From: a virus
Strand: one strand, 5' to 3'
Length of the DNA stretch: 24,169 bases
IMG/VR virus record: IMGVR_UViG_3300027734_000309
Coordinates: 1 to 24,169 of that record
Translations under genes and position numbers: made by a program
The notes under the pieces: generated by a model
Seen by the model: the letters and a program-made list of their open reading frames with translations, nothing else
Databases searched by the model: none
What the model was told of the DNA's origin: nothing
Shown: positions 4,911-24,169 of the stretch, piece by piece
How positions within the stretch are numbered: the stretch's first letter is position 1
Layout: every line of letters begins with the position of its first letter

Positions 4911-5369
4911 ATGTCGACAGGTATTTCATATGGTATAACTTTTCCGTTTAGGGATTCATTCGTAGGTAGATACTTGGATGTTTCTAATACAAACGAAGAA
5001 GAAATAAGAAACTCTTTGGTTCATTTAATATTGACCAAAAAGGGTACAAGATATTACTTGCCTGATTTTGGTACGAGACTTTATGAATATATTTTCGAAC
5101 CATTAGATGGCCCTACATTTTCTGATATTGAGGCAGACATTAGAGAATCGATTGGAACATATATGCCAAATTTGTTGGTCACAAATGTTACTATCGAACC
5201 GGCTTCTGCAGGATTGGAAGATAAAGGTTATACCGTAAATGAATTTAAAGAAAGAGAATTTAAAGTTCCTAACATATCACAATTAGAACACACAGCAAAA
5301 ATTAAAATAGATTACAAAGTTACAAATCAAGCATTTGAAAGTAGTGATTTTGTTATCATCAATATTTAA
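4911..5369 (+). CDS. 25: Baseplate wedge protein, gp25-like
   Basis: This 152-aa protein fits the GPW/gp25 family in both length and motifs. gp25 sits at the inner baseplate wedge with gp6 and gp53 in T4 and helps start sheath assembly. The diagnostic block LTKKGTRYYLPDFGT is at residues 41-55 (T/S-kGeR-x-PdfGt pattern), followed by EYIFEP (59-64), an acidic helix and a YMPNLLVTNVTIEP strand (84-97), as in the family. The usual core is followed by about 50 extra C-terminal residues of beta character. The ATG at 4911 opens the tail block, 51 bases after the terminator. The leader is AT-rich without Shine-Dalgarno and contains TATTTAT at 4897-4903. gp6 follows after 6 bases, the pairing expected for contractile tails and related injection machines. 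Confidence 0.94.
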   Translation: MSTGISYGITFPFRDSFVGRYLDVSNTNEEEIRNSLVHLILTKKGTRYYLPDFGTRLYEYIFEPLDGPTFSDIEADIRESIGTYMPNLLVTNVTIEPASAGLEDKGYTVNEFKEREFKVPNISQLEHTAKIKIDYKVTNQAFESSDFVIINI

Positions 5370-5375
5370 TGATAT

Positions 5376-7217
5376 ATGGCAGAAAAAAAGATTTCCTATA
5401 CAACAAGAGATTTTCAAGGGGTAAGAACCGAGTTAATAAATTTTACAAGAACTTACTATCCTGAGTTAGTTCAAAATTTTAATGATGCTGGAATTTTTTC
5501 AGTACTATTAGATCTTAACGCTGCGGTAACTGATAACCTACAATTTCAAATTGATAGAAGTATTCAAGAAACTGTATTACAATTTGCACAACAAAGATCG
5601 TCAATATATAATATCGCAAGAACTTACGGATTAAAAGTACCTGGTCAAAGACCATCTGTTGCTTTAGTTGATTTTTCGATTACGGTTCCTGCTTTTGGTG
5701 ACAGAGAAGATTTAAGATATTGTGGAATATTAAGAAGAGGATCACAAGTAAATGGTGCAGGACAACCATTTGAAACCGTTTATGATATTGATTTCGCATC
5801 ACCAATAAATGCTGAAGGAACACCAAACCGACTAAAAATACCAAATTTTGACTCTAGTGGTAACTTAATAAATTATACCATAACAAAAAGAGAAGTTGTG
5901 GTTAATGGGGTTACAAAAGTTTTCAAAAGAGTTATTACCCCTAATGATGTTGTACCATATTTTCCTTTGTTTTTACCTGAGAAAAATGTTTTAGGTATAA
6001 CAAGTGTTTTGTTAAAAGATGGAACACAATATAGTACAATACCACAACCACAAGATTTTATTACACTTGGCCCTGATCGATGGTATGAAGTTAAGGCGTT
6101 GGTTGAAGATCGAGTATTTGTTGAAGACCCAACTAAACCATCTGATCAACCTGGTATAAAAGTTGGAAGATACATATCTACATCACAAAAATTTATATCA
6201 GAATATACACCTGAAGGTTTTTGTAAATTAACATTTGGGGGTGGTAATATTTCTGCCGAACAACAATTAAGAGAATTTGCAAGAGATGGTAAAGGATTTG
6301 ACATTTCTAGATACTCGAATAATTTAGGATTGGGAAGTACATTAAAATCAAATAGTACTTTGTTTATCCAATACCGAATTGGAGGAGGAACTGGAAGTAA
6401 TTTAGGTATTGATACTATAAATCAAATTGGTACTGTTTCTTTTTCTGTAAATGGACCATCGGCTAATGTAAATAGAACTGTTATCAATAGTCTTAGATGT
6501 AATAATGTTACGGCAGCTATTGGAGGTGCAAACGCACCAACAACCGAAGATGTTAGACAAATGGTTTCATTCAACTTCTCAGCCCAAAATAGAGCCGTTA
6601 CTGTAAATGATTACGATTCAATAATCAGAACGATGCCTTCTATATTTGGAGCACCTGCAAAAGTTTCAATAACCGAAGAAAATAATAAAATAAAAATAAA
6701 AATGTTGTCTTACGACACTAGTGGTAATTTAACTGATGTTATATCAAATACTTTAAAACAAAATGTTGCAAATTATTTATCAAACTATCGAATGATAAAT
6801 GATTATATTTCAATTGAAAGTGCTCAACCTATAGATTTAGCCGTGGAGTGTGATGTCGTGTTAGATAGCTCAACAACATCGGGGGCTGTGGTTGCTAAAG
6901 TTATTGAAATTATTTCAAATTATTTTAACCCACTTACAAGACAATTAGGTCAAAATGTTGTCGTGTCTGAGCTAAAAAGATTAATTCAAAGTCAAAATGG
7001 GGTTATTAGTATTTCAGATATGAGATTTTTCAATTTAGTTGGAGGTCAATATTCATCATTTGAAACATCACAAACTTATTCAGATCCTGCAACTCGAGAG
7101 ATACAATTATTTGCAGATACTATATTTGCTGAACCATCACAGATCTATCAAATTAGATTTCCAAATAAAGACATTACGGTTAGAGTTCTTAATTTAAAAA
7201 CCGTTAGTTTTTCTTAG
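5376..7217 (+). CDS. 6: Baseplate wedge protein, gp6 / baseplate J-like
   Basis: This 613-aa protein is close to the length of T4 gp6 (about 660). gp6-like proteins form the wedge dimers that make the inner baseplate ring around the hub and contact gp25. The N-terminus has ISYTTRDF (6-13) and then LLDLNAAVTDNLQFQIDRS (44-62), the pattern seen at the start of gp6-like proteins of T4-like phages. In the C-terminal half, TTEDVR (389-394) followed by RAVTVNDYDSIIRTMP (about 407-422) matches the baseplate J signature (T.eDiR and RAVT..DY). Most of the middle looks like beta structure. The start at 5376 is 6 bases after gp25 with no Shine-Dalgarno. A 74-base gap with a hairpin and a repeated leader motif follows, so transcription or translation may be adjusted after this gene. 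Confidence 0.9.
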   Translation: MAEKKISYTTRDFQGVRTELINFTRTYYPELVQNFNDAGIFSVLLDLNAAVTDNLQFQIDRSIQETVLQFAQQRSSIYNIARTYGLKVPGQRPSVALVDFSITVPAFGDREDLRYCGILRRGSQVNGAGQPFETVYDIDFASPINAEGTPNRLKIPNFDSSGNLINYTITKREVVVNGVTKVFKRVITPNDVVPYFPLFLPEKNVLGITSVLLKDGTQYSTIPQPQDFITLGPDRWYEVKALVEDRVFVEDPTKPSDQPGIKVGRYISTSQKFISEYTPEGFCKLTFGGGNISAEQQLREFARDGKGFDISRYSNNLGLGSTLKSNSTLFIQYRIGGGTGSNLGIDTINQIGTVSFSVNGPSANVNRTVINSLRCNNVTAAIGGANAPTTEDVRQMVSFNFSAQNRAVTVNDYDSIIRTMPSIFGAPAKVSITEENNKIKIKMLSYDTSGNLTDVISNTLKQNVANYLSNYRMINDYISIESAQPIDLAVECDVVLDSSTTSGAVVAKVIEIISNYFNPLTRQLGQNVVVSELKRLIQSQNGVISISDMRFFNLVGGQYSSFETSQTYSDPATREIQLFADTIFAEPSQIYQIRFPNKDITVRVLNLKTVSFS

Positions 7218-7291: not shown

Positions 7292-10200
7292 ATGCCAAAG
7301 TCATATAGGATAAGAACACAAGTTGGTGTTGATAAGTACATCAACGTAGAATTAGATCAAGATTTTGAGTTTTTAGAAATACTTTCTTTAAAGTTATTAT
7401 CTGAAGATGTTTATACCAGATTTTGTTCAGACTATGGTGTTATAGTAGGAAGAGTTTTGGTAAATAATGGATTTGGTGTTCCGAATGCTAGAGTTTCGGT
7501 TTTCATACCATTAGAAACTGAAGATCAGTTAAATCCTATTATTGCGGAATTATACCCATATCAAAATTTATCCGATAGAAACGAAGAAGGTTACAGATAT
7601 AATCTATTACCGAAAGATCCTGCATACATTGGACATCAAGCGACGGGAACTTTTCCAACAAGAGCTGACGCCCTAATGGATCAATCATATATTGAAGTGT
7701 ATGACAAGTATTATAGATTTTCTGTAAAAACTAATGAAAGTGGCGATTTTATGATTTTTGGGGTTCCGTTGGGGGATCAAACGGTGGTTATGGATGTTGA
7801 TTTATCAGACATCGGTTGTTTTTCACTTTCACCACAAGATTTGATACAACAAGGAGTTGCCACTGAAGACCAAGTAGATGGTGCCAGTTTTAAAACATCG
7901 ACAAACTTAGATTCATTACCTCAAATAGTAAATTTAAATTTTGATGTTGATGTGAGACCACTTTGGGGTGATACAGATATTTGTCAAATTGGAATAACTA
8001 GAGTTGATTTTGATTTGACAAAATTAGCTAACATTAAAATAGAACCTACTTCAGTGTTCATGGGTTCTATAATATCAACAACAAACGATGACGCTCTTAA
8101 AATAAGTTGTAAGCCAAAAAATGACACCGGAAATCTTTGTGATTTAATTGCGGGTGAGGGTCAAATAATGGCAATTAGACAGACAATTAACACCGATGAT
8201 GATGGATACCCAATATTAGAACAATATAATTTAGAAAATAATGGGAAAGTTATAGACGGAGATGGGTCATTTTTAGTTAATTTACCTATGAATTTGGACT
8301 ATGTTGTAACTGACGAATTCGGACAACAAATTTTATCTCAAGATCCAACAAAAGGAATTGCCACAAAAGGTAAGTATAGGTTCAAATTTAAATGGGTGAA
8401 CAAAGAACAAAATTTAACATTGTCGGACATCCAAAAAAATATTGATGAACAATTAAATAAAGTAAAAAAAGAAGTAGGGATTAAAGAACAAGATTACAGC
8501 GGAAACTTCCAAAGAGCACATTTTTTAGTACCAAATATAAAAGAATACGGATGGTCAGTTTATGATAAGGATCCATTACAAACAAAAAAACCAACCACAT
8601 TTAATTATCAAATTTCTGCCAACAACACCGTAGGACCAACTCAAATAATCGGACCTGTAGGTCTTCAGTTTGTTAGTGCTCCAAATACATCATCATTTAT
8701 TATTTATATCAACGGACAACAATATTTTGGAGACCCAAATCAAATTTCTATACCCGCACTATCATCTTTTTATATTGATGGTATCGCTTTAAATACAAAC
8801 CAACCACAAAATTTTACTTTCACTGAATATCCTATTGAATTATATGATGTTTTTAGATCTTACGCATTTTCATTAGATTGGAATGATTATGGTAATACAC
8901 AAATGATCCAAGAAGCCATTAATTGTGAAGATAGGTTCTATGAATTTAATTATAATAAAGTATATACAACAGCACTTTTTCTTGACAGATATAAAAATGG
9001 TATTGGTAGGGCAAAACATTTGGGTATCAAAGAAATAGACGATAGAGCTTGTGCATCAACTAACAATACATTTCCAGTAAATGATATTATAAGAAACTTT
9101 GACCCATTGTTTTTTGTTTTTAACATTTTCACAAACATTTTAATATTTCCATTGATGACTTTATTGTTTGTAACACATTTTGTTGCATTTATTTGGCCAA
9201 TCTTAAAATGGGTTCTTTTGTTTCTAAGTATTAGATTTATTGCAGATAGTTATCAAGCCGCTGCGGTTGCCATTGACACCGCTCAAGAGGCGGTAAATGA
9301 CGCTTTAAGTTTAATTTCTTTTACACCTACAGGTCCAGTTATTGATCCAGGTCTAACTCCCGAATTAATAAAAGATACTTTGGCTGCGGTCAGAGACGCC
9401 GCATACTCAATTTTAACTTTTGCGTCCTCGATAGTTTATTTAGCATTTATTACAGCCGCAATATTTGATTTTAGAAATGGAACATGGAGACGACTTAATA
9501 TACCTAGATTAGGGTTTCCAATGATAACATATAATGATTGCACAACTTGTGAATGTGAGTGTAATACTGCCGAGTTAGATGATGATGTTACACCTCAATC
9601 AATTCAAGACGAAATAGACCAACAAATTGCCGAATCAGGTAGCGGTTCGAATCTTCAGTTGGCGGTTCCAAGAAGTTTTTTGGCACCTGTAAACTCACCT
9701 GGTTCTTATGATATATCACATCCAAATTTAAATCAAAACCCAATAGACTCAAATGACCCTGACGATGGTCTTTTTGATTGTGGCGGACCGATTAAAAACT
9801 TTCAGTCTTTTTCATACACATTACAACAACAAGATATTGACCCTGAATTAGTCGTAAGGGCTAGTTTTGACTTTTTAAGAATATTCTCAGGATATGATAT
9901 ATTAAGTTCAACAGACCCTATAAAATTAACACCAAACGAAAAAGACTTATTACACGCACCACAACCATTTTTGTGGTCTGCAAGAAAAGATAGTACCATA
10001 GGTTTAAATGAAAGATGGTTTGCGATTCCAACATCGGTTACTTATCCGCAAAAACTCAATGATTTCAATACAAGAGATAAATATTTTACAAACGCTGGTA
10101 CTGGTGTCGGACCGAATAGAATTAAAGTAAATGTTAATAATTCACCAAATAATTTTTATGACCAAGTATTAGTGGTTTTGGCAAATCCTGGAACGACAAG

Positions 10201-13078
10201 TTCTTTGGGTACGGGACAATTCTTTTCATTTCAAGATCCAAATCTATCTAATTCATTTGTTAATTTAACAGGGGCATCATTTAATCAATTTCAAACAAAC
10301 TCAATTACAGGAGTTACATTTACAGGACAGACAACCGTAAGTGTTGGATATGCTAATTTTTTTAATATTGATCAAATATCTAATTTAACATCACAAATAA
10401 TTATTACCGCAACAACAGAAACACAAATACCCTCCACATTACAAGGAGTACCCGGCATAAATGGATATGAAGAAAGTTATCTGAAGTATCCAACAGACAT
10501 AGAATATTTCCAAGTGGTTACTGGTATGACTGTTGGCACCTTTCTTTCTATGTCAAATAATACAACACCAGGTTTATTTCCTAACGAATATTTGTTACAT
10601 AGAATAAAATATGCAACACCTGACTGCGGATTATTCCCTTTCAATCCAAGTTCCCCTTCCTATAACATCAGAACAACTTCACCAGCCTTACAATACATGC
10701 CGGGATATCAAAACTTCGAGGTTATTATTATGGTTAGAGGTGTTGATCCCCACACTCAAAAACAAAATATTTCATATGATTTGTCAAGAATTTTTGGTTA
10801 CACAACTTTTGGTCAAAATTCAAATTTATTAGTTAGTGGTGATTATTATTTAAACGTACCAATTCAGGCTTACCCAACCACACCAAGAAAACCTAAATCC
10901 CATAATACAGGAAACAACGTTGGTCATAATTTATATTTTAATTCTTATTCACTACAAATAAGTGGTCCATTAGGATCTAATCCTAATTTTACTGCATTTA
11001 CATCTACATTACCATATTATTACATTGCAACTGATGATCCTATATATTCATCATATACTCCTATAGGTGTTCTTCCGGCGAACTCCACAAATTTAGCGGG
11101 ACCCACTAACCCAATTGTATTTCCAACAACAAGTACTTTACCTTATTATAGTCCCTTAGTGAACCCACCACAACCAATTTCAACAGGAGCTGGTGGAGGT
11201 GCTTATTTGAAATCAAATACAAGTTTAAGTTTATCGCCCGGATCAAATTTTCTTTCTCAGTTTTATTATTTTGCGCTTGGAACAGATAAATATTATTTAA
11301 ATGCACCACCAAATGCAAACTTTAATAGATTATATTATTTGTATTCACCTGTTTATTACGGAAATACTTTTTTAACTCCTGTTAATTTTACAGACAGAAA
11401 TAGAATCGTTATGAGAAGTGATCGCATCCCAACATCAACGAGAGTTGAAAATGGTGTTTCATTAGTAACAGGATATGGGTTACATCAAAATAATAACTTC
11501 ACATATTATTCTGCAAACGGAGAACAAGCACCTGAAATAATTCAAGCAGGTTTTGATATACCTGACGGAGGACAAGCAGATCTCGACCCTATTACATCAG
11601 CATTGACCGATACCCTTCAGTGTGAAAATATGGTGTCATTACAATGTTATTCTGGTAGCGGAACTAATATTGGTATTATACCTGCTGATCAATGCTCGAT
11701 TCCACCTGGACGTGTGGTAAAAGGATGTTATTGTTTATTAAACAAAGGAGATGAGGTTGCAAATAAAAGATGGTATTTGATTGGAGATGCATTTAAATAC
11801 GACTCTGCATTATTATTGGAATGGAAAGTTAGATTTACTTTGAACTTTGCCGCTTGTAGAGGTGTGTTTTCACAAACATTTCAAAACAATTGGGTAAATG
11901 GTGTATTATATATGTTTTCATTTAATACTCGAAAATTGTTTGGTTTAGATCCAAATAATCCTAATTATACGTCAAGAAAATTTTATAAAGCATATTGTGA
12001 TGACGTTATTATTCATAACGACATTACAAATAATTTCTACTATAGATGTTCCCCATGGAATGAATCCACACAACAATTCATAGGTAAAGAATCTCCAAAT
12101 ACTAGCGGGTTTATACCGGCATTGTTAAATTTCCCTGGAACAGGGTATAATGTAAAACAAGTACAATTCCCAACAACTGTTGTTGATTTGGGACCAAGAG
12201 ATTTGTTTGTTAATCAAATTTGCGCCAATCCTTCTTTTGGGTCTTATTACGCAAACCAAACAACTCCAACATCATATCAAGACAATTCAGATATTTTACA
12301 GTTGGCATTCTTATCAAGAATTTTAAATAATACGTTTAGAACAGGTATGCAAGCCGGTATAACGGGTAATAATGTTAGAGAAGGTGTTGGTATTGCTGAA
12401 TTTTTTGATAACGATAGAAAAGGACAAAGAATAGATGGTGACATTGCTCAAATGATGTCAATTAACTCAGAATGGAAAGTTTCACCTTTTATAACAGAAA
12501 ATCTAATTGGACTTACCAATCCTAATTCATACATTTATTTTGGAAATCAGGGGGGTAACAACAACCAATTTAAACCAGTGTTTGGTGTATTCTTTTCGTC
12601 AAGAACTGATGAGTTTAGATATAGAAGAATTATGTCACCTGGAATCGAAACGTTTAATCAATCACCGTTAATACAACAATCATTTGGTTATCCTAAGTCT
12701 CAAGTTGTCCCAAATTATAAATGGTCATTAAGTACGGGATCTAGTATTTTTGGTAATGAAAATAACAATTGGTACACCGATAGTGTAAATGCTCAATTAG
12801 GATTTTTCCAAAAACAATATCAAGATGTTGATTTTGATACACCACTTGAAAAATATAGAACTTCGACAACTAAGTTTGGATTTATAAGTAATTTTACAGG
12901 TGCAAACCCACCATTACCAAATCCAAACCCATTTAACGTTTTACAAGGGGTTCCGAGCCCTGTTGTAACACCTATATCCACGTTTGTTGTTGGAGCTCCT
13001 TATTATTTCTATTTTGGTTTAGTTAATGGAAACACCGCAGTGGATAAATTTTATAAACTTTATGTAGCCGATTTCTAA
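7292..13078 (+). CDS. Giant putative baseplate/tail structural protein (1928 aa)
   Basis: I do not recognise a named family. Position between gp6-like and other tail genes makes a virion role likely. Residues about 45-175 look like a carboxypeptidase-regulatory/prealbumin-type beta domain (GRVLVNNGFGVPNARVSVFIP, then FSVKTNESGDFMIFGVPLG). Residues about 370-400 are charged and helical. Residues 606-650 are strongly hydrophobic, enough for two membrane passes, and 706-725 form another hydrophobic segment; they flank an alanine-rich helix. Immediately after comes a Cys cluster, CTTCECEC (Cys750, 753, 755, 757). Residues about 900-1430 are Asn/Thr/Ser/Pro/Tyr-rich and beta-like. A second Cys cluster (1444, 1452, 1468, 1479, 1481) opens a more globular end domain. 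The ATG at 7292 follows the AACTATTTAT leader; the stop overlaps the next ATG by one base (TAATG). Membrane-like segments in a baseplate protein are unusual. Confidence 0.85.
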   Translation: MPKSYRIRTQVGVDKYINVELDQDFEFLEILSLKLLSEDVYTRFCSDYGVIVGRVLVNNGFGVPNARVSVFIPLETEDQLNPIIAELYPYQNLSDRNEEGYRYNLLPKDPAYIGHQATGTFPTRADALMDQSYIEVYDKYYRFSVKTNESGDFMIFGVPLGDQTVVMDVDLSDIGCFSLSPQDLIQQGVATEDQVDGASFKTSTNLDSLPQIVNLNFDVDVRPLWGDTDICQIGITRVDFDLTKLANIKIEPTSVFMGSIISTTNDDALKISCKPKNDTGNLCDLIAGEGQIMAIRQTINTDDDGYPILEQYNLENNGKVIDGDGSFLVNLPMNLDYVVTDEFGQQILSQDPTKGIATKGKYRFKFKWVNKEQNLTLSDIQKNIDEQLNKVKKEVGIKEQDYSGNFQRAHFLVPNIKEYGWSVYDKDPLQTKKPTTFNYQISANNTVGPTQIIGPVGLQFVSAPNTSSFIIYINGQQYFGDPNQISIPALSSFYIDGIALNTNQPQNFTFTEYPIELYDVFRSYAFSLDWNDYGNTQMIQEAINCEDRFYEFNYNKVYTTALFLDRYKNGIGRAKHLGIKEIDDRACASTNNTFPVNDIIRNFDPLFFVFNIFTNILIFPLMTLLFVTHFVAFIWPILKWVLLFLSIRFIADSYQAAAVAIDTAQEAVNDALSLISFTPTGPVIDPGLTPELIKDTLAAVRDAAYSILTFASSIVYLAFITAAIFDFRNGTWRRLNIPRLGFPMITYNDCTTCECECNTAELDDDVTPQSIQDEIDQQIAESGSGSNLQLAVPRSFLAPVNSPGSYDISHPNLNQNPIDSNDPDDGLFDCGGPIKNFQSFSYTLQQQDIDPELVVRASFDFLRIFSGYDILSSTDPIKLTPNEKDLLHAPQPFLWSARKDSTIGLNERWFAIPTSVTYPQKLNDFNTRDKYFTNAGTGVGPNRIKVNVNNSPNNFYDQVLVVLANPGTTSSLGTGQFFSFQDPNLSNSFVNLTGASFNQFQTNSITGVTFTGQTTVSVGYANFFNIDQISNLTSQIIITATTETQIPSTLQGVPGINGYEESYLKYPTDIEYFQVVTGMTVGTFLSMSNNTTPGLFPNEYLLHRIKYATPDCGLFPFNPSSPSYNIRTTSPALQYMPGYQNFEVIIMVRGVDPHTQKQNISYDLSRIFGYTTFGQNSNLLVSGDYYLNVPIQAYPTTPRKPKSHNTGNNVGHNLYFNSYSLQISGPLGSNPNFTAFTSTLPYYYIATDDPIYSSYTPIGVLPANSTNLAGPTNPIVFPTTSTLPYYSPLVNPPQPISTGAGGGAYLKSNTSLSLSPGSNFLSQFYYFALGTDKYYLNAPPNANFNRLYYLYSPVYYGNTFLTPVNFTDRNRIVMRSDRIPTSTRVENGVSLVTGYGLHQNNNFTYYSANGEQAPEIIQAGFDIPDGGQADLDPITSALTDTLQCENMVSLQCYSGSGTNIGIIPADQCSIPPGRVVKGCYCLLNKGDEVANKRWYLIGDAFKYDSALLLEWKVRFTLNFAACRGVFSQTFQNNWVNGVLYMFSFNTRKLFGLDPNNPNYTSRKFYKAYCDDVIIHNDITNNFYYRCSPWNESTQQFIGKESPNTSGFIPALLNFPGTGYNVKQVQFPTTVVDLGPRDLFVNQICANPSFGSYYANQTTPTSYQDNSDILQLAFLSRILNNTFRTGMQAGITGNNVREGVGIAEFFDNDRKGQRIDGDIAQMMSINSEWKVSPFITENLIGLTNPNSYIYFGNQGGNNNQFKPVFGVFFSSRTDEFRYRRIMSPGIETFNQSPLIQQSFGYPKSQVVPNYKWSLSTGSSIFGNENNNWYTDSVNAQLGFFQKQYQDVDFDTPLEKYRTSTTKFGFISNFTGANPPLPNPNPFNVLQGVPSPVVTPISTFVVGAPYYFYFGLVNGNTAVDKFYKLYVADF

Positions 13079-16858: not shown

Positions 16859-17767
16859 ATGGCAACAGGTAGTTACGGAACGGTAAGAGGTTCAGATGTT
16901 AGTCCCGAAGATGTTGAGATTATACTAACATATACACCAAGTAGGGATGATACAAATAATTTTATTTTAACAACTTTGAACGCACAAGACGTTTTGAGAC
17001 CTTATTTTCATAATTCAGACACAGGAGGAAATGCGAATGTTGAAATATTGGGTGGTCTATATAATTTGAAATTGCCGGCAAACCAATTTAATAAATTAGG
17101 TATATATACACTTTTAATAAGACCTGCAGAAATTAGAACTACGATTAATGATTGTGGTGTTTTATCTGCCTTACCAAATGTTAAAGGGATTGTTATTGAC
17201 ATAAACCAAGTTCCGATCGAATACCGTAATAAATTTGTTAATCAAGGGTTGGTTGGTTTTAGAGTTGAATATTTGAATCCAAATGGAACTAAAATTCCAA
17301 ACTTTTTTAGAATAATAACTTCGTCTTTTTATTGCGAACCTGTAGTTCAAAATTTAACAAATACGATTCAAAAATCTATTAGATATAGATATGTGGATGG
17401 AGCAACTAATTTAATGTTCTGTACTTTATCCCCATCATCTTCACCTACAAACAAACCAAATGCGACACCATACATCGGTCAGCCAAATCAAAATATCATA
17501 ATTACAAATACATATTTCAATCCTATAACCACTGAAGTAGAAATTGTTGATCAAGATATCTCAACGTTGGCAATCGCTCTTTATGGTAATCAAACCAAAT
17601 CAATTGATGATGGTATTTACACTATTTATGACTCCAATAATAACATCTATAAGCAATATAACCTTTACGAAATTAAAGACCAATTTAATCAACTATTATA
17701 TGAAGTTAGACAAGATAGAGGTACTAATATAGATTTCAGTAAAAGCTTTACTAATATAACGGCATAA
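16859..17767 (+). CDS. Putative tail/baseplate protein (302 aa)
   Basis: No family recognised. The first 170 residues form a regular beta-rich domain: EIILTYTPSRDD, ILGGLYNLKLP, YTLLIRPAEIRTTI, IVIDINQVP. A turn-rich Ser/Pro/Asn linker follows (about 190-215) and then a short end domain. Two or three isolated Cys are present, with no signal peptide. The gene has its own 25-base leader with the repeated AACTATTTAT motif and a long A run, unlike its overlapping neighbours, so it may be made at a different level. Its stop overlaps the start of the 996-aa gene (TAATGG). The order (compact beta protein, then very large wedge-like protein) suggests that the two interact; this is inference. Confidence 0.82.
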   Translation: MATGSYGTVRGSDVSPEDVEIILTYTPSRDDTNNFILTTLNAQDVLRPYFHNSDTGGNANVEILGGLYNLKLPANQFNKLGIYTLLIRPAEIRTTINDCGVLSALPNVKGIVIDINQVPIEYRNKFVNQGLVGFRVEYLNPNGTKIPNFFRIITSSFYCEPVVQNLTNTIQKSIRYRYVDGATNLMFCTLSPSSSPTNKPNATPYIGQPNQNIIITNTYFNPITTEVEIVDQDISTLAIALYGNQTKSIDDGIYTIYDSNNNIYKQYNLYEIKDQFNQLLYEVRQDRGTNIDFSKSFTNITA

Positions 17768-20757
17768 TGGCAACACAAAAATTTACCTGTCCACCCCAAA
17801 ACGCTAGCGGTCAAGGCACGTTTTCTGACAATATAGTTGGATTACAGCTCGTTGGTGGAGGTGGTTTTACGCAGGCAAATTTTGAATTTACGACCTCGAT
17901 ATCTGAAAAACAAAACAGAAATTTCAATATAGGTACTTTTTCAGACCCTATGAGTTTGAAAAGTATGAACATCGAAAGTGTTCTTGAGGCAAGAAATATT
18001 CTTACAAATAATTTTCAGGTATATCCTAATTATGATTTATCACAAGTTACGAATTTTACCGAGTATGGTTCATTAACGAAAAGATTATCAACGTCTGTTA
18101 CGAAAATTATTAATTATTTTCCAGCGGCTTTAGAAATATCTCCCGTAAATCCCAAACTATTAAATGTCGAAACTGCATTTAATGCGATTTATGATGTCGT
18201 TGATAATGAAACACAATTTGAGATAAAAATAACATCAATTAACAATCCGTTAGATATTGATTTTTCAGTTGATGCCACAAGAAACTTGGCTTTACGAGAA
18301 ATTCCTGTTTCACCACTACGAGATATGACGGTTGAATATAAAAAATATTCATTATTTATTAGACAACAAGAATATCCTGTTAATTTTATTTACCCGATTG
18401 ATAATAATTCAGTCACCTTTAAGTTGATCGTTGAAGGAAATCCTTTTTCGGGGAATTCAATTTCGTATGAGTACTTAGTTATTAGACCTAATAATATTGA
18501 GGTAAATAAAGTTTTTAATGATAGTTTAGATCCTGTTGAAAACTTCTTGTTAAATAGAAATGTAAATCCAATATACACGGCAAGTTTTAGAGTACCTATT
18601 GAAAATGAAGCAGGAACATACGTTTTTACTGAACAATACGCAACGTTCCCACTTAATGGGGTTTGGAACTTAGATATCGAATCAGCGGCTTTTGATAACT
18701 ACCTTCAAAAACTTAGTGAATATGGTATTAATTTAGACGAGTACAAAACCAATTTGATTTCTAGATTTTTGACCACTGCAGCTTTAAAAGAGTTTGATAC
18801 ACCAGATCAAAGTTTTGAAAAGGTATTACAAATATATGGTAGAAGTTTTGATGAAACAAAAACATTCATAAATGCTTTGGCAAATATGAACAACGTTAAT
18901 TATATCGTTAAAAACGATATTCCTTCACAACTTTTAAAGAATCTGGCAGAAACTTTAGGTTGGAAAACTAACATTTCACCTATAACTAATGACCAATTAC
19001 TACAGAGTGTATTTTCACCGACAACTAATACATTTACGGGACTATCAAAAGGTCAAACTCCTGATGAGTTAAATTATCAATATTATAGAAATTTAATTTT
19101 GAATTCAGCATACCTTTTCAAATCAAAAGGTACTAGAAAATCAATCGAATGTTTATTAAAATTAATTGGGGCACCTGAAGCTCTAACTGAATTTAATGAA
19201 TATGTTTATGTTGCAGATCAAAGAATCAACATGAGTGATTTTGAGCAACAATATAAACAAATCACCGGAGGAACCTTTACTCAACAATTCCCGACATTAC
19301 AAACAAATAACATATTTTCAATACAAGGAATACAATACACAGGATTTACCACAAATAGTCTCACTGTTGATGTTACAACAACAAGAGATGATTATCCTGT
19401 TGATATCTTTGGGTGTCCTCAAATGCCAAGATCCACTGAAAATTATTATTACCAAATTGGAGGTGGGTGGTTTGAATCGACACCACAACACAGAATGCCT
19501 GCGGTAACAAATATAACTAATAGTGTATTCACAGGAAATAACCCCGATTTTCAAACTACCTTATTACCATTCAATTACGGAGAAGAGTATCTTCAAAGAT
19601 ATAGAGAGTTCCCATATATGAATTTAGGGTACAGACTTCAAAAAATTGCAGACAATAAAAAGAGTTGGTATGATAATCAAGGAATTTTAAGACAAAGTTT
19701 TGATGGTGGTTTTAATGCTTATTATACAGCGTCTGAAGATTGTTTAGTACTTAACGTAAAGAATGTTGATATATTTATGAATCCAGCTCAAGGTTTGGTT
19801 TATGATGTATGGTCAATGTCAAGACAATACAATTTCCCAATTCCTGAACAAGGATTAAATTACATTCCGCCGACACCTTGTAATGTATCAAATCCATACC
19901 CAAAACGAGGGGGTATCGATTGGACTGAAATAGTACCAAAACCAAAACAAAAAACATTTTTTGAATTCGCACAAACTTTTTGGCGAAACATGATTAATGT
20001 TAGAAATCGTCAGTTTATTACCGATGGTAAAACTGGAGGTTATCCAACATTACAATCAATATATTGGAAATACTTGGAGTCACAAGAATTGGCGGGTATC
20101 CAAAATGATAATTTCACATATCAAACAATGATTGATTATGTGAATGGATTAGGAAATTATTGGATAAATTTGATCGAACAAATGATTCCAGCAACAACCA
20201 TTTGGACTACAGGTATGAAATTAGAAAATTCTATTTTCCACCGACAAAAATTTGTTTGGAGAAGACAAACAGGTTGTAAATTTATACCAGTACCGTGTAA
20301 GCCATGTAGTATTATTACACAACTCTATACGTATGATTGTCCCGCACAAGTAATTGAGTGCGGAATATTCCCATGGAATAATGATCCAACAGTAGTATCC
20401 TTCGGTTATATTTTAAACCAAACGTTACAACAATATTATGAATCCACAAATATAAATTATGCGGATTGTTTAGGGACTACTATAATTGCAAATTGGTATG
20501 TTGATCTAAGAATAAACGGAGCACCTATTGTTCAAAATCAGTTTTTAACAACATATGGGGCATTAAACGCACCAACACAACAACAATGGTTAGTGGCTTT
20601 GGAAGATAGTCTATCCACTTTACAAGTAGATGGATATAGTTATGATATAGACATAGAAAATGAAACCGTTTCGGTTTTTAATAATAATTGCACCTCAACA
20701 TTTGATGATTTTCAAATCAATGTTGGGTTAGATTTTCAAGTTTTATGTAACGGATAA
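17767..20757 (+). CDS. Large putative baseplate wedge protein, possible gp7/tail-protein-I analogue (996 aa)
   Basis: Residues 1-290 are beta-rich, with a Gly cluster (LVGGGG) near the start. Residues about 315-470 are helical and contain NLAETLGWKTN and then LFKSKGTRKSIECLLKLIG (450-468). The latter resembles the SKGTR...L.L.G motif of tail-protein-I-type baseplate proteins in contractile-tail systems. The length is close to T4 gp7 (about 1030 aa), the largest wedge protein and partner of gp6, so a gp7-like role is plausible but not shown. Residues 837-865 hold five Cys (837, 844, 847, 858, 865), spaced like a small metal or disulfide knot, after FVWRRQTG. The last 90 residues form a separate alpha/beta end domain. 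No signal peptide or membrane segment is seen. One-base overlaps link it to both neighbours. Confidence 0.85.
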   Translation: MATQKFTCPPQNASGQGTFSDNIVGLQLVGGGGFTQANFEFTTSISEKQNRNFNIGTFSDPMSLKSMNIESVLEARNILTNNFQVYPNYDLSQVTNFTEYGSLTKRLSTSVTKIINYFPAALEISPVNPKLLNVETAFNAIYDVVDNETQFEIKITSINNPLDIDFSVDATRNLALREIPVSPLRDMTVEYKKYSLFIRQQEYPVNFIYPIDNNSVTFKLIVEGNPFSGNSISYEYLVIRPNNIEVNKVFNDSLDPVENFLLNRNVNPIYTASFRVPIENEAGTYVFTEQYATFPLNGVWNLDIESAAFDNYLQKLSEYGINLDEYKTNLISRFLTTAALKEFDTPDQSFEKVLQIYGRSFDETKTFINALANMNNVNYIVKNDIPSQLLKNLAETLGWKTNISPITNDQLLQSVFSPTTNTFTGLSKGQTPDELNYQYYRNLILNSAYLFKSKGTRKSIECLLKLIGAPEALTEFNEYVYVADQRINMSDFEQQYKQITGGTFTQQFPTLQTNNIFSIQGIQYTGFTTNSLTVDVTTTRDDYPVDIFGCPQMPRSTENYYYQIGGGWFESTPQHRMPAVTNITNSVFTGNNPDFQTTLLPFNYGEEYLQRYREFPYMNLGYRLQKIADNKKSWYDNQGILRQSFDGGFNAYYTASEDCLVLNVKNVDIFMNPAQGLVYDVWSMSRQYNFPIPEQGLNYIPPTPCNVSNPYPKRGGIDWTEIVPKPKQKTFFEFAQTFWRNMINVRNRQFITDGKTGGYPTLQSIYWKYLESQELAGIQNDNFTYQTMIDYVNGLGNYWINLIEQMIPATTIWTTGMKLENSIFHRQKFVWRRQTGCKFIPVPCKPCSIITQLYTYDCPAQVIECGIFPWNNDPTVVSFGYILNQTLQQYYESTNINYADCLGTTIIANWYVDLRINGAPIVQNQFLTTYGALNAPTQQQWLVALEDSLSTLQVDGYSYDIDIENETVSVFNNNCTSTFDDFQINVGLDFQVLCNG

Positions 20758-22943
20758 TGGGATACATTGAAATATATAACTTATCGGTAACTGGGGATTG
20801 TTCGAATACAGGCTCGGGAGGTTTTTCATTTAGTGTTACTGGTGATAGCGGACCAAGTTGGTTAGTTTATGACATTACATCAGGAAGCTCAATACCAACT
20901 TCAGCAACAACCAATTATTACGAGGCCACGGGATTATTTTCAAACACCTATTTTGTTGGAGTCCAAGACTCAGTGGAAACGTTACCTCTTGTAATTTACA
21001 TTTCATCAGGAACAACGGTTTCTGCATTATCTAGTGATACTACTTGTGGTGTTAATAATGGATCGATAACCGCAGCAACGGAATATGTGTATGGTCAATC
21101 TTTTTATTATCTATATGATGGTTTAAATAATTATATGTCCAGTGGTACCACAAATGAGTTATATTTTGAATTTTCTAATTTAAGTGCCGATACGTATTAT
21201 GTTATAGCAAACGATGGTGGTGGATGTACGGGAAGTACCGCATCGTTATTAATACAACCCTCAACAGCTTTCGATTTTGGTTATTACGTTGTTAGTGACT
21301 CAAGTTGTTATAATGAAGGTAGTGGAAAAATATTTATCACAGGATTGACACCAATATCTGATTATGTTATAACATGGTTATCTGATGTTAATGGACAAAC
21401 AGGATCAACAGTAACAGGATTGACCAATGGAATATATCAAGTTCAAGTTGAAGATCCAAATAATTGTGTTAGTATAAAATCAATAAACGTTCCATCGGTT
21501 GATATTATTGGTTTAGGTGCATTTTTTGTAACACCAAGTAGTGCGTGTTTTATTGATGATGCAACAGTAGATGTTGTAATAACTGGAGGTACCGCACCAT
21601 TCTATTATAGTGGTTCGTCAGGACAAGTTGAAATTTCATTTGCAAGATCATATACTTTCACTGGCGTTTCTGCGGGTGATTTCGCGGTTAATGTCACAGA
21701 TGCGGGATTATGTAGTTTTTATGCTCAAACATCGGTATTAAATCCAAATACTTTTTATCAGGTTGATATAAACACCACAAATTCTAATTGTTCATCAAAC
21801 GATGGAACAATTCAGATTATTGTAGATCAAGGTAATCCACCTTTATCGACATTTAATTATAGTGTGTCGGGAGATTCAGGTTATTACCAATCAGTTAGTT
21901 TTGGTAATCCAATACAAACTTTTAATGGACTAAGTTCAGGTGATTATATTATAACGGTTTCAGATGAAAATGGATGTACTTTTACTGGAACCACATCAAT
22001 AAATAATGTCTCTTCATTTTCAGTAACCGCAAATACAACAGGAACCACTTGCGGATTTAACAATGGGATTGTTGAAATATTAGTTTCAACGGGAGGTACC
22101 TATCCATACTCATTTACTTTAGTTGGACCACAAGGTAACGAACAAATTTTCAACAACAATTTAGGTATGTTCGAAAATTTACCACCTGGAAATTATGATC
22201 TTATTGTTTCAGATAGTAGTTTGCCAACATGTAATGAAGAATCTGCAATTTTTATATCACCGTCAAATAAAGTAAGTTTTGATTTTTATGTTAATCAACC
22301 TGTTTTTGGTGGTGATGGAAGAATAAGTGTTTATATAACAAGAGGTACTCCTCCATTTACATATAGTTGGAGTGGTGATGTTGGAACTCAAACAGGTTTA
22401 GTAATAACAGGAGCATCATCAGGAGAATATAGTTTAGAAATTACTGATAATAACGGTTGTGGTTTAAAAAAAGACGTAGTTTTATTTGGAACAAAAAGTG
22501 TTTCTAACTACAGAACTTTTACTGTTTGTGAACAGACATTTGAAAGTGTAAATACGGTTACCAAAAGAGGTGTGAGACAAATGTTTTGGGAAGGTTTTAC
22601 CGATCTAACTAGTGGAGATACTAATTGTATAATAACATCTGCAGATTTTATAATTATTGCGAGTGTTGATGGTGAAACTAAAGAAGAAATCTTTTATAGT
22701 TCATCAGGATTCACTGACTACCCAACTGATACTATTTGGGCGAATACAATCATTGAGGTTTTGAATAGTTTCCCTGGTATTTCTAATGTTGTTGTGGATA
22801 TACAAAACAACAAAATAACGATCACGAGCGATTGTAGTAAAATTCAAAAAAATTGTGAAAACGAAACCGTAAATATTTTAGACAATACACCTATAATTGT
22901 AGATTTAAAAATAAACTACGACATTGCTTGTGTAAGTTGTTAA
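20757..22943 (+). CDS. SprB-repeat adhesin-like tail protein (728 aa)
   Basis: The protein is seven tandem beta modules of about 80 residues (residues about 5-577) plus a unique C-terminal domain (about 585-728). Each module follows the SprB-repeat layout: Cys-x-x-x-x-G-x-I near the start, often a GG/GTPP-Y/F-x-Y-S middle (clearest at 529-540, RGTPPFTYSWSG), then GLSSGDYIITVSDENGC-type endings (390-407). SprB repeats are known from the gliding-motility adhesin of Flavobacterium and other Bacteroidota surface proteins. No signal peptide or type IX secretion tail is present, and the gene is overlapped with tail genes on the left, so a virion part such as a tail fibre or tip adhesin fits best. 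Five modules carry a Cys pair (97/157, 184/237, 264/319, 345/407, 432/492). The end domain ends in CVSC. A host-to-phage transfer of the modules is inferred. Confidence 0.88.
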   Translation: MGYIEIYNLSVTGDCSNTGSGGFSFSVTGDSGPSWLVYDITSGSSIPTSATTNYYEATGLFSNTYFVGVQDSVETLPLVIYISSGTTVSALSSDTTCGVNNGSITAATEYVYGQSFYYLYDGLNNYMSSGTTNELYFEFSNLSADTYYVIANDGGGCTGSTASLLIQPSTAFDFGYYVVSDSSCYNEGSGKIFITGLTPISDYVITWLSDVNGQTGSTVTGLTNGIYQVQVEDPNNCVSIKSINVPSVDIIGLGAFFVTPSSACFIDDATVDVVITGGTAPFYYSGSSGQVEISFARSYTFTGVSAGDFAVNVTDAGLCSFYAQTSVLNPNTFYQVDINTTNSNCSSNDGTIQIIVDQGNPPLSTFNYSVSGDSGYYQSVSFGNPIQTFNGLSSGDYIITVSDENGCTFTGTTSINNVSSFSVTANTTGTTCGFNNGIVEILVSTGGTYPYSFTLVGPQGNEQIFNNNLGMFENLPPGNYDLIVSDSSLPTCNEESAIFISPSNKVSFDFYVNQPVFGGDGRISVYITRGTPPFTYSWSGDVGTQTGLVITGASSGEYSLEITDNNGCGLKKDVVLFGTKSVSNYRTFTVCEQTFESVNTVTKRGVRQMFWEGFTDLTSGDTNCIITSADFIIIASVDGETKEEIFYSSSGFTDYPTDTIWANTIIEVLNSFPGISNVVVDIQNNKITITSDCSKIQKNCENETVNILDNTPIIVDLKINYDIACVSC
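20769..22487 (+). repeat. Seven diverged SprB-like coding repeats
   Basis: In-frame modules of about 240 bases encode residues near 5-82, 88-168, 172-245, 255-328, 334-416, 420-500 and 505-577. They share the Gly-x-Tyr-x-(I/V)-x-(V/A)-x-D-x-x-x-Cys ending but are diverged at DNA level, so this is an old array and not recent slippage. The first and last modules each lack one Cys of the pair. Confidence 0.78.
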
Positions 22944-22944
22944 T

Positions 22945-23163
22945 ATGAATGAAATAACTATTAATTCTGTTAGCGGATTTACATTACCAGTAACCGCATA
23001 CACCTGTGATGTTTATCAAAATCAATGTGTGTTTGGAGGTATTATCACAACAACACCTGAAACCATAACAATTAACTCACAATTCGACACAGCACCTGCT
23101 GTTGGTTTATTATTAACTGACGGAACATGTGAAACATTTGAAATTGTAATTTGTGATAGTTAG
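22945..23163 (+). CDS. Small protein (72 aa), probable accessory tail protein
   Basis: No family recognised. It is a short beta-rich protein with four Cys (21, 28, 62, 70) that could make two disulfides or bind metal. There is no signal peptide or membrane segment. It starts one base after the adhesin-like gene (TAATATG) in the same transcriptional direction and shares that gene's Thr/Ile/Asn/Cys-rich style. A cap, chaperone or small decoration partner of the adhesin-like protein would fit the position; this is inference. An alternative is a split-off end module of that protein. The coding call rests on tight spacing and composition matching its neighbours. Confidence 0.72.
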   Translation: MNEITINSVSGFTLPVTAYTCDVYQNQCVFGGIITTTPETITINSQFDTAPAVGLLLTDGTCETFEIVICDS

Positions 23164-23203: not shown

Positions 23204-24169
23204 ATGGACGATTTAATTTTTGTAACGGCACAACCTGATGTACCATATTTTCATTGGCAAATTCGATTGTATGTTCATAATTTTATCAGTAAAGGTATAA
23301 ACCCAAAAAATATCCACGTTATATTTTCCATTCCTGAACAAAAAAAAGAACCAAGCGACGAGGCAATCGAACTTTTAAAATTAGGAATACAAATTCATTT
23401 CTTTAAAGACGATAGAGACAATAAACATTATATACCATCAATAAAACCATATTTAATTTCAAAGTGGATTCAAAAAAATCCCAAACATGGTGAGTTATTT
23501 TTTCTTCACGATGCTGATATTATTTTTAATGAACTACCGAGTTTTGATCGGTTGTTAAATGATGAGGTTTGTTATTTGTCAGATACGATTGGTTATATTG
23601 GATACGATTATTTGAAAAATTGTTCTAAAAATTATGAAACCAAATTCGAAAATTGTGGAAATGAAGAATTAATAGATTTAATGTGTGACGTTATTGGTAT
23701 TGATAAGGAAGTTATAATTAAAAATCAAAACAACTCAGGAGGTGGTCAATACCTCATTAAAAATACAAACTATGAGGTTTGGGAAAAGATATATAAAAAT
23801 TCAAATGAGATGCATTCAACACTAATCAAATTCCAAAGAAAGTATCCGATCAACACAGGTCAAATACAGTTTTGGACTTCAGAGATGTGGTCACTATTGT
23901 GGAACTTATGGTTGATTAATAAAGAAACTAAGATAACTCCTGAATTAGATTTTTCTTGGGCCACTGACACAATTGAGATTTATGAAAAAAAACCAATACT
24001 TCACATGGCTGGAGTTACTGAAAATTTAAAACACAACAAATTTTATAAAGGTGACTTTATAGAAAAAAACCCAATTGAATTTTTACAAAAAGACCCAAAA
24101 TATTTTGATTATATTGAAAAAACTAGCTCAACCGTCAAATATATTGACAACATGAAAGATTACATAAAA
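23204..24169 (+). CDS. Putative glycosyltransferase, GT-A-like with DxD motif (3' partial)
   Basis: A frame open to the right edge encodes 322 residues with no stop. It begins MDDLIFVTAQPDVPYFHWQI, the opening strand of a nucleotide-sugar transferase fold. At 97-108 it has ELFFLHDADIIF, whose Asp103-Ala-Asp105 fits the metal/UDP-sugar-binding DxD motif. Downstream SGGGQYLIKN (178-187), TSEMWSLLWNLW (226-236 region) and ILHMAG (265-270) are in the order expected for acceptor and nucleotide loops of GT-A enzymes. This general layout recalls the hydroxyproline/serine-type transferases. No signal peptide or membrane segment is visible, so it would act in the cytoplasm. ATG 23204 is chosen because an in-frame TAA lies at 23192-23194. 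The 40-base gap before it has no Shine-Dalgarno. It may glycosylate a tail protein or alter a host surface; the substrate is unknown. Confidence 0.75.
   Translation, partial: MDDLIFVTAQPDVPYFHWQIRLYVHNFISKGINPKNIHVIFSIPEQKKEPSDEAIELLKLGIQIHFFKDDRDNKHYIPSIKPYLISKWIQKNPKHGELFFLHDADIIFNELPSFDRLLNDEVCYLSDTIGYIGYDYLKNCSKNYETKFENCGNEELIDLMCDVIGIDKEVIIKNQNNSGGGQYLIKNTNYEVWEKIYKNSNEMHSTLIKFQRKYPINTGQIQFWTSEMWSLLWNLWLINKETKITPELDFSWATDTIEIYEKKPILHMAGVTENLKHNKFYKGDFIEKNPIEFLQKDPKYFDYIEKTSSTVKYIDNMKDYIK

Follow-up and report, generated by a model that had tools for sequence, protein, structure and literature searches.

The closest described systems are the SprB gliding adhesins (PF13573), whose cellular relatives are nearly all found in Bacteroidota. 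In gliding bacteria, SprB and RemA are proposed receptors for phages (PMC13288928, PMC7345892). Among solved structures, the best match to the protein considered here is Aureispira GhpA (PDB 9flp and others), a 5,898-aa cellular surface protein with tandem Ig-like modules. Tandem Ig-like modules also occur on virions, in Hoc-like, neck whiskers, and tail Ig proteins. T4-like tail-fibre adhesins possess a conserved stem with a tip that is swapped among close relatives. Of the named sequences, UniProt A0A6J5LD72 (uncultured Caudovirales phage) is the closest. It matches over its full length (29% identity, Foldseek E=5e-52) and clearly belongs to the same family. It bears the database name 'SprB repeat', and the literature search found no architecture, synteny, or function described for it. 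The search, outside of which most subscription journals lay, found neither SprB repeats in phage virions nor disulfides inside SprB repeats.

The window, which is the whole stretch of DNA analysed, is a 24,169-base record of a T4-like virus. It encodes a DnaB-type helicase and both ribonucleotide reductase subunits. One of its genes encodes a protein with seven SprB-type modules (Table 1). With moderate confidence, the product of this gene is the stem of a tail fibre or of a baseplate-attached adhesin in a T4-like Bacteroidota virus, with exchangeable surface-binding tips. A host-adhesin module in a putative virion gene, an invariant array of seven modules with a sharp swap point, and an inter-module cysteine pattern are the unusual points of this locus.

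The first-pass annotation had placed the gene in overlap with the preceding tail gene, downstream of baseplate genes, and both statements are correct. Its ATG begins inside the last codon of the 996-aa gene, and gp25-like and gp6/Baseplate_J-like genes lie upstream. The window also contains a 1,928-aa tail-region protein (7292-13078) without a convincing family match, the first 829 residues of which had no tblastn match in the phage collection. By gene order alone, it is probably a gp7-like wedge protein. A conserved gene for 324-330 aa follows the fibre gene (23204-24169 in the window, L001:8450-9442 in a relative). It belongs to phrog_4417 and has a glycosyltransferase-like HDADI motif. Its product could modify the Ser/Thr-rich fibre or the Pro/Thr stalks described below.

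The host of the virus is likely a member of the Bacteroidota. This can be inferred from several features. The ribonucleotide reductase best matches are from Cellulophaga and Tenacibaculum phages (about 40%), and the baseplate wedge protein has Flavobacterium phage immuto among its matches. A Shine-Dalgarno motif precedes none of 14 start codons, and these motifs are rarely used in Bacteroidota. SprB-type proteins are themselves a feature of this phylum.

Table 1. Positions of the putative fibre-stem gene, its parts, and neighbouring genes in the window.
Feature	Position	Strand	Remarks
gp25-like baseplate wedge protein	4911..5369	+	Context
gp6/Baseplate_J-like wedge protein	5376..7217	+	Context
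996-aa conserved tail gene	17767..20757	+	Ends in the same C-terminal domain, about 20329-20754
Putative fibre-stem gene	20757..22943	+	728 aa; seven SprB-type modules and a C-terminal domain
Module 1	20769..21011	+	Residues 5-85; AB-loop Cys C15; FG position is D71
Module 2	21012..21260	+	Residues 86-168; C97 (AB), C157 (FG; putative partner C15)
Module 3	21261..21500	+	Residues 169-248; C184 (AB), C237 (FG; putative partner C97)
Module 4	21501..21749	+	Residues 249-331; C264 (AB), C319 (FG; putative partner C184)
Module 5	21750..22013	+	Residues 332-419; C345 (AB), C407 (FG; putative partner C264)
Module 6	22014..22268	+	Residues 420-504; C432 (AB), C492 (FG; putative partner C345)
Module 7	22269..22496	+	Residues 505-580; without AB Cys; C568 (FG; putative partner C432)
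C-terminal alpha/beta domain	22548..22940	+	Residues 598-728; variable tip attached after the domain in relatives
Small 72-aa protein	22945..23163	+	71-100-aa counterparts in the same place in several relatives

Homologues were collected from IMG/VR by scans with the gene, with its alignments, and with the upstream gene as queries. A set of 111 non-redundant homologues (less than 90% identical to each other) was obtained, 29-99% identical to the window protein with a median of 39%. At least 566 relatives were confirmed in IMG/VR from one scan. The family is larger than these 566, with hundreds of IMG/VR matches. The homologues come from viral contigs, and the virus origin given in the first-pass annotation is upheld. 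The refuting case that it named, a gene confined to host chromosomes, does not apply. A host-chromosome or prophage gene was rejected: a scan of cellular genomes with two short conserved patterns, which is weak evidence, found no relative. In 109 of 110 loci, a homologue of the 996-aa gene immediately precedes it. This fixed neighbour is part of the tail-baseplate cluster, which in the window has gp25- and gp6-like genes upstream. Collagen-like and further fibre-type genes are present in the same stretch of relatives. The cultured Flavobacterium phage immuto has the wedge protein in common with the window, but an SprB match is absent from it.

The seven modules occupy residues 5-580 and are 76-88 aa each. 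The whole protein matches Pfam SprB PF13573 (E=1.1e-9) at 38.2 bits, above the curated cut-off of 28. Single modules of the window protein reach 24.6 and 19.7 bits, each below this cut-off, and module 7 is the best single match. Single modules of relatives do score above it, and all 38 homologues scanned match SprB (E<=0.001, best 2.4e-31). In profile-profile comparison of the module columns, all 21 module pairs match each other (E 7e-5 to 4e-23). The C-terminal domain does not match the module profiles (E 0.05-0.6). AlphaFold2, run with a 38-member alignment, gave a model with a mean pLDDT of 81. It predicts all-beta modules of six or seven strands each, followed by a linker of low confidence (580-601) and the alpha/beta C-terminal domain. 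Its pTM is 0.37, and the model does not fix the placement of the modules relative to each other. The best fold match is the tandem Ig-like GhpA (fold E=1e-16, sequence profile E=2.3e-7), with a low overall TM-score, since the chain geometry of the two is not comparable. The seven SprB-type modules and the Ig-like fold proposed in the first-pass annotation are both supported. Pfam matches of the core to HMA (heavy-metal) and sorting-domain families were put down to chance or to generic beta-sandwich similarity.

Searched with a module profile made from the phage proteins, host SprB-type proteins yield 2,006 modules. The phage and host domains are thus homologous. Nevertheless, the window protein is not an SprB gliding adhesin proper, since it lacks the export signals and the genomic context of one. 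Its N-terminus, MGYIEIYNLSVTGDCSNTGSGG, is without a hydrophobic stretch when judged by eye, in agreement with the earlier statement that it lacks a secretion signal. NCBIfam models for the type IX secretion system (T9SS) sorting domain (TIGR04131/TIGR04183) found none in the window protein, and TIGR04131 was detected in comparator P0003. The gene sits in a virus record with baseplate genes, not beside gliding or T9SS partner genes in a cellular genome, where the weak two-pattern scan found no relative. In addition, it is limited to seven modules, and these are nearer to same-position phage modules than to any host module.

These results bear on the idea that the protein is a secreted adhesin or moron, which the infected host would export through its type IX secretion system and carry on its surface. 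Phage-borne T9SS cargo has been described for a cryoconite phage (PMC7468147), and the SprB protein encoded in a 642-kb phage record appears to have a signal peptide as well as a type B sorting domain. For the window protein this export is highly improbable, given the missing signal peptide (by inspection) and NCBIfam sorting domain and a gene that adjoins or overlaps the same tail gene in nearly all relatives. The 642-kb record, LR756502, was the one matching record in the annotated phage collection. Its protein (L086:10828-15840 in LR756502.1) is 1,670 aa long and has many canonical SprB repeats, a signal-peptide-like start, and TIGR04131. It was rejected as an orthologue on account of this start and the type B sorting domain. 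It is a secreted host-type adhesin distinct from the virion family, and mis-assembly with host DNA is possible.

The C-terminal domain of the window protein is also present at the end of the upstream 996-aa protein. Residues 598-728 match that end with an hhalign probability of 97.3% (E=2.5e-11), while five other segments of the 996-aa protein reach at most 2.2%. HMMER links both C-terminal domains in relatives, down to E=1.5e-9. BLASTP between the two domains found nothing, and profile comparison alone detected the link. Both models have the same order of elements, helix-strand-strand-helix-strand-strand-strand. The model of the 996-aa protein is poor (pLDDT 50) and is usable only for the C-terminal domain and residues 120-250. 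A common terminal domain in two adjacent tail proteins suggests a common docking site or partner.

Some matches point to the particle's head or neck. Residues 198-313 of the relative L054 match phrog_2973 (Hoc-like head decoration) with E=2.5e-19. Weaker PDB sequence matches of the window protein are to the 'neck whiskers' protein gp24 (residues 469-562) and to a decoration protein. The L054 and whisker matches count against a fibre, and they would be expected if the protein were a Hoc-like or whisker-like capsid or neck decoration, whose Ig-like modules hold particles to mucus, polysaccharide, or cells with no role at the baseplate. Such a decoration is unlikely. The matches cover generic Ig-like modules alone, and the window protein itself had no match among PHROG families. 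The locus is fixed in the baseplate/tail-fibre cluster, and the C-terminal domain is common to the adjacent gene product. The window family further differs from the Ig-domain phage proteins in its SprB-type module and its conserved inter-module cysteines.

The first-pass annotation proposed to look for variable repeat number in sister phages, and the number does not vary. Seven modules of near-constant lengths are present in 111 of 111 homologues, with no module gained or lost, and it is the C-terminus that varies. At every position, and in 111 of 111 homologues, the nearest relative of a module is its positional counterpart in other phages. It is never a host module or a neighbour in the same protein. 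Recent capture from a host SprB was rejected on this basis. The fixed lengths and the same-position closeness argue that the array is an old, vertically inherited, fixed structure.

The variable part begins after the C-terminal domain. Among 105 complete relatives, 73 have fewer than 30 residues beyond the core, another 6 have 30-99, and the remaining 26 carry extensions of 100-692 residues. The window copy ends at the C-terminal domain and is the bare form, as in most relatives. The extensions frequently start with a Pro/Thr-rich stalk, followed by unrelated domains. These tips include leucine-rich repeats (LRR), Cys-rich domains, and DUF285 repeats (E to 9e-90) with a PKD-like domain. In L067, L043, L017, and L020, the cores are about 83-90% identical and the tips are without detectable similarity. 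Tip swapping between such close cores is the pattern of a host- or surface-recognition part, which suggests that the tips may bind a surface. The same arrangement of conserved stem and exchanged tip is seen in T4-like tail-fibre adhesins, but here the stem to which the tips are fused is of the SprB type, and a Pro/Thr stalk often forms the join. Phage tail proteins with DUF285 (BspA-type) repeats were also observed in L030, L036, L039, L074, L140, and L044:16031-18295. The repeats lie in a C-terminal tip or in the gene that follows, and Pro/Thr stalks often accompany them.

The 73 tipless relatives count against the fibre reading as well. They are consistent with a purely structural baseplate spacer that links wedge and fibre proteins, in which the modules do not bind and the tips hitch-hike. 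Module number and lengths fixed in all homologues, the position-specific orthology of every module, and the C-terminal domain common with the upstream protein are also consistent with a spacer. However, long tips have been gained and exchanged repeatedly at one point, which suggests an exposed end under diversifying selection. A spacer is considered quite unlikely, and a fibre or adhesin stem remains the preferred reading.

The cysteines can indicate how the modules are joined. Modules 2-6 each have one AB-loop and one FG-loop cysteine, module 1 has the AB cysteine only, and module 7 has the FG cysteine only. All twelve positions are kept in at least 109 of 111 homologues (C15 in 109, C568 in 110). 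The first-pass annotation listed 97/157, 184/237, 264/319, 345/407, and 432/492, which are correct as positions, and it omitted C15 and C568. Its proposal of one disulfide per module does not agree with the cysteine pattern, the co-loss, or the host arrays described below, all of which favour links between neighbouring modules. Pairing inside modules would leave the conserved C15 and C568 without partners. Pairing the AB cysteine of one module with the FG cysteine of the next uses all twelve: 15-157, 97-237, 184-319, 264-407, 345-492, and 432-568. In an Ig-like sandwich, the AB and FG loops are at opposite ends, and each AB loop points towards the FG loop of the following module. By this strand-order argument, pairing inside one module is unlikely.

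Losses of cysteines in the phage family can be compared with this pairing. L052 and L238 share only 53% identity, and each of them lacks C15 and C157 and has kept the other ten. Relatives 80% identical to L052 retain C15 and C157. The pair has thus been lost jointly twice, in independent events. Module 7 of one large subgroup carries an AB cysteine, and in 51 of 53 such cases a further cysteine lies just past the last strand. Where module 7 is without the AB cysteine, the second cysteine is found in 0 of 58. Single-sided losses in the 432/568 pair (C432F in L117 and C568S in L009) show that the last putative staple may be dispensable, or that pairing at this position may not be strict.

The same cysteines are present in host SprB repeats. 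A test set of 2,034 SprB-type modules from 78 loci, nearly all from Bacteroidota, was explored for joint losses. Within one module, the AB and FG cysteines are lost independently of each other (odds ratio 1.0), and the association of AB loss with FG loss in the previous module is not significant (odds ratio 1.4). AB loss is strongly tied to FG loss in the next module, with an odds ratio of 193 (p=7e-22). At offset +1 there were 14 joint losses, from 11 proteins, and each of the six other offsets had 0 to 5. When cysteines were shuffled within arrays 2,000 times, the highest count obtained was 7, and 14 was never reached. A rarer intra-module pair of cysteines (columns 21 and 113) was observed in the host SprB loci L256-L333, with both in 148 modules and one in 7. 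The co-variation method thus also detects intra-module pairs. One disulfide per module was rejected on the basis of the leftover C15 and C568, the joint loss of C15 and C157, and the host-array odds ratios. The conserved cysteines most likely link neighbouring modules in series. Since the host arrays co-vary as the phage modules do, the inter-module staple seems to be a general property of SprB repeats, common to the hosts and this phage family.

A possible mechanism can be put together from these features. The seven SprB-type Ig-like modules would form a fibre stem of fixed length. Disulfide staples would join neighbouring modules in series and stiffen the chain. Virions are assembled in the reducing cytoplasm, and the staples would therefore form after lysis, once the particle leaves it. 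The C-terminal domain, common with the upstream 996-aa protein, may serve as a docking or capping unit. In many relatives this domain is followed by a Pro/Thr-rich stalk and then by an exchangeable tip that would do the binding.

The gene thus appears to represent a widespread, uncharacterised fibre family of viruses with probable Bacteroidota hosts and a fixed, recognisable stem. The mapped swap point makes work on receptor specificity tractable for uncultured viruses. The disulfide topology is testable for SprB repeats generally, host adhesins included. With SprB and RemA as proposed receptors, the presence of the module on both sides gives a concrete hypothesis, and a functional link between the phage stem and these host receptors is worth testing. 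According to the first-pass annotation, such a virion could bind host polysaccharide, compete with host SprB, or travel with gliding hosts. It is possible, though doubtful, that the phage lineage adopted the host adhesin module for a disulfide-stiffened virion fibre whose tips set host or surface specificity, competing with or mimicking the gliding filaments that some phages may use as receptors.

Other variations were seen among the relatives. A second SprB-matching protein is present two to three genes on in L001 (9446-11482, 679 aa) and L013 (16218-17537, 439 aa), and both fall outside the seven-module family. In L026 (13003-15250), two ORFs of 174 and 491 aa take the place of a single fibre gene, through either a frameshift or a sequencing error.
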